Shown piece after piece: positions 2,237 to 53,675 of a DNA stretch of 64,000 bases (its first letter is position 1; each line of letters starts with the position of its first letter). A program made the position numbers and the translations under genes. The stretch lies in contig JASJOS010000011.1 of the NCBI GenBank assembly GCA_030068525.1, forward strand, positions 186,001 to 250,000, in the 5' to 3' direction. The notes beneath the pieces are model-generated. The model saw nothing but the letters and a program-made list of their open reading frames with translations, made no database searches and was not told where the DNA came from. Origin of the DNA: Xanthocytophaga flava. Its GTDB lineage: Bacteria; Bacteroidota; Bacteroidia; Cytophagales; 172606-1.

Positions 2237-5200
2237 ATGAAAAGAAAACTACTCTTTCTTTTCCTGGGATTGTTTTGGCTTTATTTTTCTGTAAATGCAC
2301 AGGAACGAACGATTTCAGGTAAAATAACAGATCAGGAGCATAATACAGTAGTGCCTGGAGTAAATGTAGTACTCAAGGGAACAACAACAGGAACTACCAC
2401 CAATGGAGAAGGTATCTATACATTAAAAGTCCCTGCAAATGGTGGTTCACTGATATTTTCTTCTATTGGCTATAAAACTCAGGAGATCGCGATTGGCAAT
2501 AAGTCTGTTATGGATTTGTTTATGCTACCAGATAATCAGGCACTTTCGGAAGTAGTTGTCACTGCACTTGGTATTAAAAGGGAGGAAAAGTCACTGGGAT
2601 ACTCCTTGCAGAAAATAGATGCCAAGAGTATGGAACAGGCCAGAGAAACCAACTTTGTTAATGCGCTTACAGGAAAGATTGCTGGTGTACAGATTACAGG
2701 AGCTTCCGGCAATATAGGGGGATCGTCTCGTATTATTATTCGGGGAATACGATCTATCGATGGAAATAATCAGCCTTTATTTGTGGTAGATGGTACACCT
2801 GTAGACAATTCCAACTTCAATACAGATGCTGTACAGGGTGGAGAAGGAGGAGGTCGGGATTTTGGAAATGCCATTCAGGATCTAAACCCGGATGATATTG
2901 AGTCTATTTCGGTATTGAAAGGACCAAGTGCTTCTGCCTTATATGGCTCACGGGCATCCAATGGGGTTATTATGATTACCACTAAAGGTGGAAAAGGGCA
3001 AAAAGGAATTGGAGTTTCTTTCAATAATACGCTCACTTTTGACAAAGTATATGTATTGCCTCACTATCAGAATGAATATGGAGGTGGTTATAAACAGTTC
3101 TTCGATACCTATTCTTACAACCCTGATACGGATACAGAAGAGTATGCCGCTTTTGACGGACAACCTTTTGTCAATAATGCAGCAGATGAAAGCTGGGGGC
3201 CACGTCTGGATGGTCAACTAGTGCGGCAATGGTATAGCTGGTATCCACAGGATTCACGTTTTGGACAGATGACCCCTTGGGTTGCCCATCCTGATAATAT
3301 AAAAAACTTCTATCAGACAGGAATTACCCGTACCAATAGTATTTCACTAGCCAGTTCCAATGATAAATCTGATTTTCGGTTGTCGTTCACCAATATGAGT
3401 CAGACAGGTACCTATCCCAATAGTAGCCTGAAGAGAAACAATGTTGGATTTAGTGGGAATACCAAGTTTGACAATAAACTATCTGCAGGGATCAAATTTA
3501 ACTATGTAAAGAATGAAGCTAAGGGGCGGCCACCTGTTGGAAGCTGGAATGAGAGCAGTGTATTGCCTATTGCTTTTAATACCTGGTTTGAGCGACAACT
3601 GGATCTGGCAGACATGAAAAATTATCGTTTCGCGGATGGCACAATCCGTAACTGGAACATCAGCTATCCTACAGATACAGACCCCTACTACTGGAATAAC
3701 CCATACTTTGTTTTATATGAAAACTATAGTTCAGACAGTCGGGAAAGAGTATTTGGCAATGTATCGTTGTCTTACCAGTTAACAGATCATTTGTCTATCA
3801 GCGGATTTCTGCGCAAGGACTTCTATAACGATTTCAGAGAGGATCGCCTGGCGGAAGGATACATCTATCAGACTGCGTATGAACAGGAGATAAACAAAGT
3901 TGATGAAACCAATTATGAGTTGTTGCTGCAATATCAGAAACAAATAAGCCAGCAATTCTCACTATCTGTGACTGCAGGTGCTAATGCACGTCGTCAGTTA
4001 TTAAAACGTAATTATGGACGTACCAGAGGTGGTTTGAGTGCTACTAACTTTTTTAATCTGAAAGCCTCAACAGATCCGGCTCTGATTGATGACTATTCTT
4101 CCAGGCGATCTGTTAACAGTATATATGCAAGTGCTAGTTTGGGTTTTAGAGAATTGATCTTTGTGGATGTAACTGGTCGTAATGACTGGTCTTCGACTTT
4201 GCCAACCGGTAATCGCTCTTATTTCTACCCATCTGTATCTACCAGTTTAGTCTTCTCCGAACTAATGCAAAATTTACGCTGGCTTTCTTTTGGCAAAATT
4301 CGGGCTGGTTGGGCACAGGTTGGTAGCGATACAGATCCATACCGATTGGAAACCCGTTATTCACCTACTGACAATTATGGAAGTCAGCCCGTCTATTATG
4401 TTCCGGATATTCGCAATAACTCCAGATTGAAACCAGAGATCAGTACCTCGTATGAAGTAGGTTTGGAGACCAAATTTCTGGGAAATCGGCTAAGTCTGGA
4501 CTTCACCTATTACAATAATATCTCAACCAATCAGATCTTACGTCTGCCTGTATCCTCTACCAGTGGATTCAGCTATACCATTATCAATGCCGGTGAAGTT
4601 CGTAATAACGGTATTGAAGTAGCAGTATCCGGTACACCTGTTGAAACACCAGGCGGTTTTACCTGGGATGTAGGCATAAACTGGTCCCGTAACAGAAATA
4701 AGATTGTAGAACTGGCTGTAGGACAGACAAACTATCTTCTCAACTCAGGGTACGGTTTGATCAATATCAATGCACAGGTGGGGCAACCTTATGGGGTGTT
4801 GACAGGAGATGGATTTGCTACAGATATACAGGGACGTCGTCTGGTAGATGAAAATGGATACTACATTTTTGCCCAAAATAAGGTATTGGGTAGCGTACTG
4901 GCCGATTTTACAGGGGGCTTCAGCAATACATTCTCATATAAAGGCATCAGCTTTAGTACACTAATTGATTTTCAGAAGGGAGGACGCATCTATTCGCGTA
5001 CCAGTTCTCTTGGACAATATTCCGGTTTAACGATTGAAACCGTTGGCACTAATGTTAATGGAAATCCGAAGCGTAATCCGGTTAGCGAAGGTGGGGGAGT
5101 ACTTTCTCAAGGAGTACTGGAAGATGGTACTCCAAATAGTACATATATAGAAGCACAGGATTATTATAAATATGTCTCAGATATTGAAGAAGCACATACA

Positions 5201-49547: not shown

Positions 49548-49896
49548 CTTTTATGTATTAGTAGTTCTTGCTTGCGCATAACTCACTGCAAACTATTTTT
49601 TTCACGGACAAGTCAGTCTGTCCGAACAATGAACAATTTAGGTTTTATTCACAGCAGTTTTGCTTTTGAACATAACTCCAATCATTTTCTCTGTTGCGCA
49701 TAGTTCACCGCAATAAGAAAAAGTGATCGGAATTCACCGCAAAGCAACCAATTATCGTGAATTCCACGAACGCATTTCTTTGATGTTAATTCCGATTAGG
49801 GCGTTATTCTTGAGAGTAGAATACTCTAAAGAATAATAGAAAAAGGTTAAGCCACAAAGAGAGTGAAGATCACTTCACTCACGAAAGGGAGTGTAG

Positions 49897-50026
49897 GTGC
49901 GTAGGGATAAAAATTCCGCGGGCCTAGCGTTGGCCCTGTGGGGCGAAGCTTTGGAATTTTTTGCCTTTTTTTGATTATCACGCCGTGGCGTGACAAAAAA
50001 GTGACATGGTGATAAGAAGAGTAATG
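49897..50026 (-). repeat. Structured dispersed repeat, copy A
   Basis: Read on the minus strand: a 60-nt constant block (50026-49967) that holds GTCACTTTTTTG and the near-palindrome CACGCCACGGCGTG, a short spacer, a stem GGAATTTTT/AAAAATTCC (plus-strand arms 49909-49917 and 49953-49961), about 35 nt of GC-rich interior, and the tail CCTACGCAC (49905-49897). Copy B at 53355-53486 has the same order; the constant block matches at 54 of 60 positions, while the arms differ but still pair. It is in the sense direction of the upstream S8 peptidase gene. Confidence 0.75.
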
Positions 50027-50138
50027 TTCTGGATTTTAAACTAACTTGGGAAGAATAAAGCAAAAAATGAAGAGGCCAGTGGAACAATGATCAAGTGGAC
50101 TATCAATAAACTCAGGAAGAGAGAGCTCTTAAAAATAA

Positions 50139-50177
50139 ATCAGGACCTATACTCTTCTCAAAAGTATAGGTCCTGAT
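50139..50177. terminator. 3'-end hairpin, copy (c) of a four-member family
   Basis: ATCAGGACCTATACT (50139-50153) pairs with AGTATAGGTCCTGAT (50163-50177): 15 bp, loop CTTCTCAAA. It lies 54 nt beyond the S8 peptidase stop. Confidence 0.85.
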
Positions 50178-50230
50178 AAGATTCACATCCAAAATTTGGG
50201 ATGACTCGTGTGTTATAAATACTGGTGTTA

Positions 50231-51793
50231 TTATTTATCCTCCCAGAAAATTTCTATTACCTCACTACCAAGATCAACGGTTGTGCGTTTTTCATCTGAT
50301 TGACGATGTAATGTTAACCGACTGTTAACCAACGCAAGTACTTCTTGTTTCGATACCACCTGGGCTGTCTTTTTATGGAATATAACAGCTCGTTCGGCAT
50401 CCGGGTCTGAAGTCTGCACTTCGTATGATTTATTTGACGTGTGTATTTCCTGGATGGTATTTACTTTGGCTGTAGAATCTTTTACAAGCTGAAGTGCCTT
50501 TCGGGCATCAGGTACACCATATCCGATATACGTATTGCCGTATGGATACAAGTGAGCTGATTTTTCGATGATCCGCATGAGTTGTTTGTTGGTCAGCTTT
50601 GGATTTTTCTCCATCAGGCAGGCTGCCAGACCTGTAATAACAGGTGCGGAGAAAGAAGTACCATTAGGAGAGAAGCAGGATACATTGGGTTTCAGGTACG
50701 GTAGGAAGTCAGGGCCAATACTACTATAACTAATCCGGTCACGGGATTTGGCTTTTGTAGCGCCTATAGATAATACACCTTGTGCATCTGCTGGAGTAGA
50801 AATAATCCGCCAGTTTGGGTCATCGCCTTCGTTGCCTGCCGAAACCACAATCAACATGCCTTTCTGGTCTGCTGCAATTTGAGCTGCCTTGCTGATCTTA
50901 CTTGTTTTTCCATCCATTTCAGAGGGTTTGTAGTTTTCTTTTGCATTAGAGAATCCCATGGCATATCCCAATGATGTGTTAATCAGACGTACTCCCAGAC
51001 TATCCATTCGTTCGATGGCTGCAATCCAGTTATCCTCTTCCGTACGTGTTTCTCTTACTCCATGATCTGTGCGGGCAAGATAAAAAGTAGCACCTGTAGC
51101 CATACCAAATTCCATTCTTTGATTGGTATTGTATCCACCTACCAGTTGTAGTACTTCCGCACCATGGTAGTCTGAATGGGTTTCCATGCTGAAGAAATCT
51201 TCTGTATGACTGGGATTTACAAAGTCTCTGGTGTCTTTGATGCGGTTCTCATCCCGAATCAGTTGCAAAGAGGCGCTTGTTGCAACGCCATAAAAACCCA
51301 CATCAATAATGCCTACTTTTATTCCTTTACCTGTTAAACCTTCTTCTATAAAGGCTTTAGCTCCGATCTGATTTAATACTACACTATAAATCTCAGGCGT
51401 AAGCTGCCCGTCTGTGACACTGCAAATTCGGAGACGACTATCTATACCATTTATCTCCTGTACAAAATGAAGTTTTTTTACTGCCTGTAGTTGCTTTTCA
51501 TCAAGATACGCTGATGTTGCATTGAGCCATTTGGAAGTAACCTGTGTTTCAATGCCCAGATCTTTTAGTTGCCGGATATAGGCCGGGTTAACAGGAGCAT
51601 CTGTATCCTGATAAACTGCCAGTCCCTGCTGCATTCTGTTTTGCTCAGCCTGAAGCGAAATCCATGTATTGGCAGAATAAACGGGTTTGTCTTTAAATGT
51701 GATCCAGTACTTTTGCTGAGCTGATGCCCATGATGACATCAGGAGAAATAACCCACAGGCCAGGCCCGATAATCGCATCCGATAGTTGTTCAT
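50231..51793 (-). CDS. Secreted S8 (subtilisin) family serine peptidase
   Basis: The 520-residue protein starts at ATG 51793 (MNNYRMRLSGLACGLFLL), which gives a signal peptide ending SSWASAQ; the frame is open 49 codons further up but runs into the pepP promoter area. The catalytic triad is complete: Asp164 (GIIDVGFYG), His210 (SDYHGAEV), Ser380 (GTSFSAP), with the oxyanion Asn in INTSLGY and AGNEGDD. A propeptide-like N-terminal domain (about 20-140) is present. The last 85 residues are a small domain with KKTAQVVSKQEVLALVN. It probably acts outside the cell or in the periplasm. It is divergent from pepP across 150 bp. Confidence 0.93.
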   Translation of the reverse strand: MNNYRMRLSGLACGLFLLMSSWASAQQKYWITFKDKPVYSANTWISLQAEQNRMQQGLAVYQDTDAPVNPAYIRQLKDLGIETQVTSKWLNATSAYLDEKQLQAVKKLHFVQEINGIDSRLRICSVTDGQLTPEIYSVVLNQIGAKAFIEEGLTGKGIKVGIIDVGFYGVATSASLQLIRDENRIKDTRDFVNPSHTEDFFSMETHSDYHGAEVLQLVGGYNTNQRMEFGMATGATFYLARTDHGVRETRTEEDNWIAAIERMDSLGVRLINTSLGYAMGFSNAKENYKPSEMDGKTSKISKAAQIAADQKGMLIVVSAGNEGDDPNWRIISTPADAQGVLSIGATKAKSRDRISYSSIGPDFLPYLKPNVSCFSPNGTSFSAPVITGLAACLMEKNPKLTNKQLMRIIEKSAHLYPYGNTYIGYGVPDARKALQLVKDSTAKVNTIQEIHTSNKSYEVQTSDPDAERAVIFHKKTAQVVSKQEVLALVNSRLTLHRQSDEKRTTVDLGSEVIEIFWEDK

Positions 51794-51942
51794 GTCTTTA
51801 CAGGTCTTCTTAAAAGTAATTTTTAGAGAATAATTACATTGGGTAAAGAAATACTTGTGATTCACTCTGATTATATGCTTTTTTGCGATTTCCTTCCACA
51901 GGACTGGAAGATCTCCAGAATAATGCCAAACTATAATCACAA

Positions 51943-53232
51943 ATGAAGTACGCGCCTATCCCCAAAGAATTATTTATTAAAAATAGAGAAAATTTTGCAA
52001 AACTCCTGAAACCTAAGAGTATTGCTATTTTCCATTCCAATGATGTAATGCCTACCAATGCCGATGGCACTATGGGCTTCCGTCAAAATAACGATCTGTT
52101 CTATTTATCTGGTATTGATCAGGAAGAAACTGTTTTAATCATTGCACCTGATTTTCCTGATCCGAAGTTTCGTGAAATACTCTTTGTGCGTGAGACCAGT
52201 GAACTGATTGCTATCTGGGAAGGGGCTAAACTAACAAAACCTCAGGCTACAGAAGCGTCTGGTATTAAAAATATTCAGTGGACAGATCGGTTTTTGCCTA
52301 TGTTGCAGATTTTGTTGTCTGAGTGTGACAACATCTATCTGAATGCCAATGAACACACACGGGCTGTAGTAGAAGTGGAAACGCGTGATGCACGATTCGT
52401 GAAGTATTGTAAAGATCGTTTTCCATTACACAACTATGTTCGGGTGGCTCCTTTGATGCATAACTTGAGAGCTATAAAATCAGAAAAAGAGATAGAACTG
52501 ATGCAACATGCCTGTGATATCACTGAAAAAGGATTTCGCAGAGTATTGAAGTTTACGAAGCCGGGTGTATTGGAATATGAGATTGAAGCTGAATTTGCAC
52601 ATGAGTTTATCCGCAATGCAGGCAACTTTGCGTATCCTCCTATCATCGCGTCAGGAGCTAATGCTTGTGTATTGCACTATGTAGAAAATAATCAACCCTG
52701 CAAGGATGGAGATGTAATCTTGTTGGATGTGGGTGCCGGATATGCCAACTATGCAGCGGATATGACCAGAAGTATTCCTGTGAATGGGCGCTTTACACCG
52801 AGACAGCGTCAGGTGTATGATGCCGTGCTACGGGTAATGCGTGAATCGACCAAGATGCTTGTGACCGGAAACTTATGGGATGAATACCACAAAGAGGTAG
52901 GCAAGATCATGGAAAGCGAGTTAATTGGACTGGGCTTGCTAGACAAAAATGAGGTTGCAAAACAGAATCCGGATAATCCGTTGTATAAGAAATATTTCAT
53001 GCATGGAACGTCTCACTTCCTTGGACTCGATGTGCATGATGTGGGCAACAAGTACCGTCGCTTTGAACCTGGTATGGTATTTACTTGTGAACCGGGTATC
53101 TACATTCCGGAAGAAGGTTTGGGTATCCGTCTGGAAAACAATATCCTTATCACTGAGAACGGAAATAGTGACCTGATGGCTACTATTCCTGTGGAGGCTG
53201 AGGAGATTGAAGAGATTATGAATAGCAAATAA
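51943..53232 (+). CDS. pepP: Aminopeptidase P (M24 family)
   Basis: The 429-residue pita-bread metallopeptidase removes an N-terminal residue before proline. Metal ligands are Asp262 and Asp273 (DVGAGYANYAADMTR), His354 (HGTSHFLGLDVHD), Glu383 (CEPGIYIP) and Glu398 (IRLENN); the first four fall within two positions of E. coli PepP numbering. The N-terminal creatinase-like domain (FHSNDVMPTNADGTMGFRQN, FYLSGIDQEETVLIIAP) is present. No signal peptide. A 3' hairpin (d) and repeat copy B follow the gene. Confidence 0.94.
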   Translation: MKYAPIPKELFIKNRENFAKLLKPKSIAIFHSNDVMPTNADGTMGFRQNNDLFYLSGIDQEETVLIIAPDFPDPKFREILFVRETSELIAIWEGAKLTKPQATEASGIKNIQWTDRFLPMLQILLSECDNIYLNANEHTRAVVEVETRDARFVKYCKDRFPLHNYVRVAPLMHNLRAIKSEKEIELMQHACDITEKGFRRVLKFTKPGVLEYEIEAEFAHEFIRNAGNFAYPPIIASGANACVLHYVENNQPCKDGDVILLDVGAGYANYAADMTRSIPVNGRFTPRQRQVYDAVLRVMRESTKMLVTGNLWDEYHKEVGKIMESELIGLGLLDKNEVAKQNPDNPLYKKYFMHGTSHFLGLDVHDVGNKYRRFEPGMVFTCEPGIYIPEEGLGIRLENNILITENGNSDLMATIPVEAEEIEEIMNSK

Positions 53233-53268
53233 GCTGTGGGACATTCTGAATATTGAATGTGAATCTTA

Positions 53269-53310
53269 TAACCCAAACCTACGCTTCTGAAAAGAGTATG
53301 GTTTGGGTTA
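53269..53310. terminator. 3'-end hairpin, copy (d) of a four-member family
   Basis: TAACCCAAACC (53269-53279) pairs with GGTTTGGGTTA (53300-53310); the centre adds TAC/GTA and CTT/AAG pairings with one bulge. It lies 36 nt beyond the pepP stop and is followed by a T-rich stretch. Confidence 0.85.
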
Positions 53311-53354
53311 ATTTTTAATGAATCTTTCTAAATGAGTTGGCTTACAGTCCCAAT

Positions 53355-53486
53355 CATCATTCTTCTTATCACTGTGTCACTTTTTTGCCACGCCACGGCG
53401 TGATAACCAAAAAAGAGCACTTTCTGCCGAACCTCCCGCCCACAAAGATATGTGCTTTCCTCGTGGCAGAAAGTTTGCCTACGCAC
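53355..53486 (+). repeat. Structured dispersed repeat, copy B
   Basis: Constant block 53355-53414 (54 of 60 positions as in copy A), stem ACTTTCTGCC/GGCAGAAAGT (53419-53428 and 53465-53474), 36-nt interior with CGCCCACA (copy A has CGCCCCACA), and tail CCTACGCAC (53478-53486). The distance from block to tail is 71 nt in place of 69 in copy A. It follows pepP and hairpin (d) in sense orientation. Confidence 0.75.
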
Positions 53487-53675
53487 AGTTATGACCTTCC
53501 ACAATTGAAGGGGACTTAACTTTGTTTGTACATTAACTTTATAGCTTCGCTTTTCCTCAACATTTGGCGTGACTCCTATTTTTATAAAATAGAATTTCTT
53601 TGATGTGAGGTTTTTTAGCTCGCGTCTTTTATTTTCATGCATTGTTTATCTTTCCAGCTAACCATTTTTACAACT

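Follow-up and report, generated by a model that had tools for sequence, protein, structure and literature searches.

Copies A and B of a Xanthocytophaga flava repeat: probable members of a MITE-like family with the ends of a DDE insertion sequence

The window considered here is a 64,000-nucleotide stretch of the Xanthocytophaga flava genome (9,485,478 bases), namely positions 186,001 to 250,000 of contig JASJOS010000011.1 (C2), which carries two copies, A and B, of a structured repeat. Both are likely to be old members of a repeat family that spread as non-autonomous elements of about 345 bp, resembling miniature inverted-repeat transposable elements (MITEs) with the ends of DDE IS4-like insertion sequences, in which hairpins would have been swapped and the left one would act as a terminator. 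This explanation is preferred because of the copy number, the ends in common with insertion sequences still intact in other genomes, the decayed transposase of the sister species, the sites occupied in one species only, the lack of target duplication, the few elements in divergent gaps, the nested palindromes and the replacement of hairpins or of whole elements. According to the proposed mechanism, the elements would have been moved in trans by an IS4-like transposase since lost from this genome. Ectopic recombination among the copies would later have swapped hairpins whole, as cassettes; with both arms changing together, pairing would survive without compensatory mutation. The left-end hairpin would now terminate the upstream gene, encoding an S8 peptidase in the case of copy A and aminopeptidase P in that of copy B.

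The repeat family, its ends and the parent insertion sequence

The initial annotation of the window had described a 60-nt block common to the two copies, a shared tail and, between them, a stem with its loop. The block was found to be identical at 54 of 60 positions (49967-50026, minus strand, versus 53355-53414, plus strand), the tail CCTACGCAC is present in A (49897-49905, minus) and in B (53478-53486, plus), and the arms lie where they had been placed (inside 49948-49961 and 49905-49919 in A; ACTTTCTGCC at 53419-53428 and GGCAGAAAGT at 53465-53474 in B), as does the loop. The covariance-model search that had been proposed as a check was run on the core and yielded at least 107 copies in the genome at E ≤ 1e-3 (150 of 4844 candidates scored), while copy B as a query matched at least 35 places, itself included, at the same threshold (40 of 46 candidates scored; 9.49-Mb genome). 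With 35 places matching copy B and at least 107 the core model, the resemblance of A and B is not due to chance. The alternative of a short coding sequence or of chance similarity is highly improbable. It has in its favour that HFF(V/A)TPRRDNQK is readable in one frame of both window copies, as previously noted, but the CACGCCACGGCGTG insert needed for this shared reading occurs in only 6 of 69 aligned cores, core lengths differ, and the copies number at least 107. Thus, the view that the conserved entity is not a peptide probably holds.

When 30 copy-B matches were aligned with their flanks, an alignment used solely for locating the element ends, similarity was seen to pass the borders originally drawn and to run from ACATGAGTCATCCCGAATTTTGGAT to AAAATTCGGGATGACTCATGT, which are terminal inverted repeats. 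The region first described is therefore the inner part of a larger element: copy B extends to about 53236-53579, being a 344-bp member close to the commonest full-element length, and element A starts at 50211 (minus strand), with its right end unrecognised. The terminal repeat AWTTCGGGATGACTCATGT is found at 94 places of the genome with up to three mismatches, as opposed to 6 for the backward control, often as convergent pairs separated by 300-700 bp. Defining as full those elements with both ends within four mismatches, 45 were identified in loci from this genome and the sister species; they span 301-674 bp, with 38 of the 45 between 328 and 426 bp. Among 84 cores of this genome, a terminal repeat lies within 350 bp on both sides in 27, on one side in 29 and on neither in 28, whereas the backward repeat was found near none of them (both, 0; one, 0; none, 84); for the sister species the corresponding values are 14, 6 and 5 of 25 cores. 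These loci were selected by repeat or core, so that the shares describe the selected loci rather than the genome. The bases flanking the elements are also biased, with A directly to the left in 33 of 45 and T directly to the right in 32 of 45.

The family thus has terminal inverted repeats within the approximately 15-30 bp typical of MITEs, and it lacks coding capacity, only 5 of 85 cores falling within an open reading frame (ORF) of at least 110 amino acids. It also shares its ends with autonomous insertion sequences, which are those of other genomes. A target site duplication was found in none of the 45 elements at 4-9 bp, and at 2 bp in 6 against 4.6 expected. The exact terminal repeat is present in at least 119 stretches of other genomes, mostly of Bacteroidota with a few Chloroflexota. 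Four repeat pairs, from Lewinella, Flectobacillus, Spirosoma and one metagenome-assembled genome, enclose insertion sequences of 1431-1461 bp with a single gene for a protein of about 445 residues. This protein scores 35 bits with DDE_Tnp_1 (Pfam PF01609; cut-off 23) in one case and 21.4 bits, below the cut-off, in a second; it remains below the cut-offs of the NCBIfam IS4 models (best value, 48 bits; cut-off, 160) and is weakly similar to Tn5 transposase chains (e.g. 1b7e and 1muh). The flanks of the parent insertion sequences that were read are free of target duplication except for one possible 6-bp case (L202). Transposase matches at E ≤ 1e-3 were obtained in 9 of 148 genomes of the order. 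In the sister species (G002) a transposase copy is interrupted by stops and ends at a terminal repeat, and in G005, of the same family, a broken copy is flanked by both repeats. In other genomes, short elements (166-468 bp) bounded by these terminal repeats have different, largely palindromic interiors. As a DNA query the whole element matched in 3 of 39 genomes (few candidates scored in each), namely this one, the sister species and, marginally over 59 bp, one other. Among the literature records listed (up to 20 per search), none gave, by title or beginning of the abstract, an earlier account of this repeat family. As a separate observation, six records carrying the exact terminal repeat are titled Chloroflexota (L226, L261, L285, L289, L290 and L314), which hints at transfer between phyla.

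The consensus element consists, from the left, of the terminal repeat; a hairpin that is terminator-like in many copies and has several stem types (e.g. AAACCCAAGCCTA, AATCAGCGCCTA and AATCAGAGCCTA); a T-rich/A-rich hairpin (a:a'), in which a loop segment b is able to pair with b' beyond an A-rich linker; this linker; the core stem with apical GGCC..GGCC; CGCACCTACAC; a small hairpin; CTCTTTGTAGC; and the right terminal repeat. Secondary palindromes sit in the hairpin loops of some copies. The corresponding features of the window are as follows.

50231-51940, minus: ORF of the S8 peptidase gene, upstream of copy A
50193-50211, minus: copy A, left terminal inverted repeat ACACGAGTCATCCCAAATT, 2 mismatches to the family repeat, sole window match at up to 4 mismatches
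50139-50177, minus: copy A, terminator-like hairpin of 18 pairs followed by TTATTTTT, 3' of the S8 peptidase gene, z −6.67
49963-50005, minus: copy A, hairpin 2 (GTCACTTTTTTG..CACGCCACGGCGTG..) and A-rich linker
49905-49961, minus: copy A, core stem of the AAAAATTCC type, apical GGGCC..GGCCC
49896-49905, minus: copy A, conserved tail CCTACGCACC
49861-49880, minus: copy A, small 3' hairpin GAGTGAAG..CTTCACTC, then TCTTTG; right terminal repeat not recognised
51943-53232, plus: ORF of the aminopeptidase P gene; copy B begins a few bases past its stop
53236-53255, plus: copy B, left terminal inverted repeat, degenerate (6 of 20 mismatched), identified from its alignment position rather than its score
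53270-53316, plus: copy B, terminator-like hairpin AACCCAAACC..GGTTTGGGTT and AATTTTT, z −5.68 (0 of 200 shuffles equal or better), outside the consensus terminator scan, whose loop limit is 8
53376-53420, plus: copy B, hairpin 2 and A-rich linker
53419-53474, plus: copy B, core stem of the ACTTTCTGCC/GGCAGAAAGT type
53478-53486, plus: copy B, conserved tail CCTACGCAC
53561-53579, plus: copy B, right terminal inverted repeat, degenerate (6 of 19 mismatched)

Beside copy A, at window positions 49565-49800, lies a second repeat family (TTGCGCATAACTCACTGCAA, GCGGTGAATTCCGATC), where the sister species has about 56 bp extra. In many cores of about 150-156 nt (L098, L085, L126, L137 and others) a module of the GGGCACCAAATGAGAATTTGGTGAGCCAGATTTGTGTGT type stands in place of part of hairpin 2.

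Orthologous sites, hairpin replacement and gene context

The sister species retains synteny with the window region, at an identity of approximately 95-97%. Copy A is common to both species and copy B is also present in both, with a different and larger core in the sister; A and B have apparently been in place since before the two species split. At the copy B site of the sister (L175, approx. 3512-3992, orthologous to window 53460-53553) a palindrome with GTCCTTCTGAAAGAAACTCGTGACAAGACCGGCGGCC is inserted into the core loop. Out of 11 orthologous sites, 3 are occupied in just one species, as for MITEs, and at the two of these that were read the other species carries an ordinary terminator-like hairpin. 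At one site the elements face opposite ways in the two species. Separately, a double element composed of two opposite-facing halves lies in the reverse direction within its flanks in one species as compared with the other (L065:3925-4436 versus L171:19313-19829).

The initial annotation had also stated that pairing is kept while the arms change in sequence, and the alignment of 69 of the 103 full cores (109-120 nt, 29 pairs) bears this out, standard pairs amounting to 92.9%, against 80.6% in shuffles and 42-56% when the partners are slid. Cells altered on both sides number 230 as opposed to 65.9 in shuffles, and double changes affect 16 pairs versus 12.7 (8 of 500 shuffles as high); of five measures, one, the number of further pair types, was not above shuffles (35 versus 34.6). 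In the core stem alone, two-sided changes affect 123 cells and one-sided changes 4. When every pair of columns was scanned without guidance, the eight highest-ranking pairs belonged to the two hairpins, apart from one b:b' pair. RNAalifold alone finds the core stem only.

Thirteen orthologous core pairs were read by eye (a fourteenth is without a model match). The stem type is replaced in three of them (L136/L177; L190/L172, 10140/8984; L137/L185), and the other ten contain five core-stem arm substitutions, in four pairs, none of which is compensated. In L079/L186 hairpin 2 is swapped with the stem unchanged. Since joint changes of the two arms are confined to sites at which a hairpin or an element was replaced, and the five arm substitutions are uncompensated, the covariation within the genus fits an exchange of DNA palindromes better than selection on RNA, and pairing seems to be kept within the genus because palindromes are exchanged entire. 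Thus, the earlier proposal that preserved pairing points to selection on a folded molecule is upheld for the pairing itself, but pairing does not suffice as the sole pointer to selection, the arms having changed together only at the three replaced sites. As the inner motif recurs in other genera with arms that covary, its structure may be under long-term selection, as RNA or as single-stranded DNA.

With respect to the genes, 29 of the 77 cores that could be placed in this genome lie in convergent gaps, 41 in co-directional and 7 in divergent ones, whereas the 261 background gaps longer than 150 bp of the same loci are 52, 135 and 74, respectively; gene context is from simple ORF calls and the background includes the elements' own gaps. 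Copy A starts about 20 bases past the stop codon of the gene for the S8 peptidase; for copy B the distance from the stop of the aminopeptidase P gene is a few bases. Their first hairpins fold strongly (z values above) and are followed by T-rich tracts, so that they look like terminators of the two peptidase genes, a function that they may well have, as judged from their modelled folding. In other genomes, a terminator-like hairpin was found under a strict rule in 5 of 40 elements (1 of 66 controls).

Several observations weigh against the interpretation as MITE-like elements with exchanged hairpins. In the unselected stretch around the window only three cores are present, two with one end, one with none and none with both; 28 of the 84 cores are without a terminal repeat within 350 bp, copy B being among these at that cut-off; each end of copy B has six mismatches, a level at which 13 matches are found in the window by chance; and copy A keeps one end only. 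The length of 301-674 bp exceeds the 70-300 bp of bacterial MITEs given in PMC3733652, the elements resemble insertion sequences in their ends only, and neither a transposase nor an autonomous copy was detected in this genome at E ≤ 1e-3. The strict rule identifies a terminator-like hairpin in just 14 of the 45 elements (2 of 89 controls). As to the exchange of hairpins, the L136/L177 element is also in opposite orientation, making a separate insertion possible; the occupied and empty sites, of which two out of three were read, are unpolarised and may reflect loss.

The inner motif and the nested palindromes

The inner motif is more widespread than this MITE. The same layout with other sequence was found within the family at least 84 times in G007, 30 in G004, 7 each in G003 and G006, and 4 in G005, and at least 3 times in G001, of the same genus, with 150 candidates scored per genome; in three genomes of another family the motif model gave no matches among as many candidates each. 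Arcicella and Flectobacillus yielded 5 matches in 959 kb of loci, and a covariance-model search across the phylum returned matches in at least 15 of 296 genomes (12 candidates per genome scored; no distribution is drawn from it). The b:b' pairing also covaries, with a longest match of 5.20 in 41 sequences as opposed to 4.04 (s.d. 0.13) with permuted partners and 0 of 2000 permutations as high, in a set that holds several sequences per genome and one (L395) without the motif, with kinship ignored by the permutation; the model used to find the sequences includes b and b' as consensus letters but does not pair them. In different genera the pairs are CTTGAT/ATCAAG, CTTGAC/GTCAAG, CTTGAA/TTCAAG and GCCC/GGGC.

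The order a-b-a'-linker-b' is the layout of H-type pseudoknots. It is conceivable, although rather unlikely, that the inner motif (the a:a' hairpin, b pairing with b' over the A-rich linker, and the long stem) represents a structured RNA (probably a pseudoknot of the H type), selected on transcripts across Bacteroidota, with the MITE merely as its carrier. Besides the covariation of b with b', the order of the segments and the A-rich linker, in 55 of 77 cases the modelled strand is the one leading out of the upstream gene, and the motif strands fold better than their complements, as in copy B (z −3.46, 0 of 200 shuffles equal or better; opposite strand −1.54, 17 of 200) and copy A (z −2.84, 2 of 200; opposite strand −1.93, 6 of 200). 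However, the element, as known from its sequence, is a dispersed repeat whose gene partner and orientation are not constant, within the genus the arms change through replacement and not compensation, and with 123 two-sided changes in the core stem against 4 one-sided ones wobble steps are few. A known RNA family was discarded, no Rfam family reaching its gathering score in the window and none coming near the cut-off at relaxed thresholds, and the constant gene context and strand expected of a cis-regulatory RNA were not seen. The initial statement that no known element fits does not hold for the outer frame, which is MITE-like and has the ends of a DDE insertion sequence. That frame does not explain the origin of the motif, because the latter occurs in other genera without these ends nearby: in six motif loci of other species, five of these loci belonging to other genera, a terminal repeat within about 1500 bases is absent in four and present once, and weak, in two, a further point against the preferred explanation. 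In three Arcicella loci the motif lies within an element bearing these terminal repeats, and a larger inverted-repeat frame around the core was rejected for other genomes, where the signal is weak and mixed.

A different set of palindromes is nested in the family. The loop of one of them, termed the P-module, holds a gene for a 93-residue GIY-YIG protein (Pfam PF01541; L095:6152-6433), with one copy here and one in the sister species, and a gene-less P-module is inserted into the core-stem loop of other elements (L104, L121, L073 and L088) and of the sister's copy B. Within the order, 79 of 194 genomes give matches to small GIY-YIG genes. In 30 such loci, one per genome (L317-L346), 18 genes lie inside an inverted repeat scoring at least 13, as compared with 1 of 54 shifted and 90 of 870 swapped-flank controls; these repeats are often of the TGTCATTCTGA..GAATCT type, and such palindromes are multicopy in several of the genomes concerned. 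The palindrome pattern GTCATNCTGA..AGNATCT was found in 11 of 20 genomes possessing a gene of this kind and in 2 of 20 genomes lacking one, the two sets being unmatched for kinship, size and completeness. By our own reading of the sequences, this pattern may correspond to the CGTC repeats of PMC3733652, which, according to that source, are apparently without a dedicated transposase.

A nuclease, for which the small GIY-YIG protein is the candidate, might cut the tips of hairpins or palindromes, with palindromes being copied in by repair. As the way in which the present palindromes spread this is improbable: the recurrence of the P-module without its gene inside core-stem loops and the enclosure of the GIY-YIG genes in inverted repeats speak for it, but the tie concerns the P-module and not the element's own ends, and 12 of the 30 loci are without a strong inverted repeat. 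In addition, flanks resembling a split hairpin are limited to 7 of 45 elements, as compared with 49 of 1980 swapped pairs, and insertion into hairpins was for this reason rejected as the element's general rule. The GIY-YIG association is a lead, not a result on copies A and B. More broadly, and as a tentative proposal from sequence comparison, Bacteroidota might harbour a layered palindrome ecology, in which a widespread covarying motif coexists with GIY-YIG palindromes that invade further palindromes at their tips, the core stem of the present family among them, and in which the nuclease could be the missing mobiliser of CGTC/TGTC-type repeats.

Relation to known repeats and meaning

Like the bacterial MITEs treated in PMC3733652 (RUP, NEMIS, ERIC and Nezha), the family has terminal inverted repeats of about 19-25 bp, is non-coding, intergenic and present in many copies, has insertion-sequence ends and forms hairpins. 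It differs from them in its greater length, in the nested palindromes replaced as units, in the target duplication not being seen and in the transposase not being found in the genome. With IS4-like DDE insertion sequences (PF01609) the parent shares one DDE_Tnp_1 gene of about 445 codons between the same terminal repeats, and departs from them in the NCBIfam IS4 scores and in the flanks described above. REP/BIME repeats with RAYT (GTAG) and the CGTC repeats, again according to PMC3733652, are similar as palindromes at gene 3' ends and in inverted pairs. That copies A and B are REP/BIME sequences moved by a RAYT (Y1) transposase is nevertheless highly improbable and was rejected: the position near gene 3' ends, the inverted pairs and the high copy number would agree with it, but the family is much longer and its terminal repeats match a DDE element, and no Y1_Tnp (PF01797) match at E ≤ 1e-3 was obtained among the 16 candidates scored, the same search being positive in 5 of 14 control genomes.

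Covariation is usually read as the mark of a functional RNA. Here it seems to arise from the exchange of whole hairpins among dispersed DNA repeats, and searches for structured RNA in repeat-rich genomes should therefore test orthologous sites. The family also provides an example of transposon-like hairpins located at gene ends, and the link between GIY-YIG genes and palindromes gives a testable candidate for how CGTC-type repeats may move.

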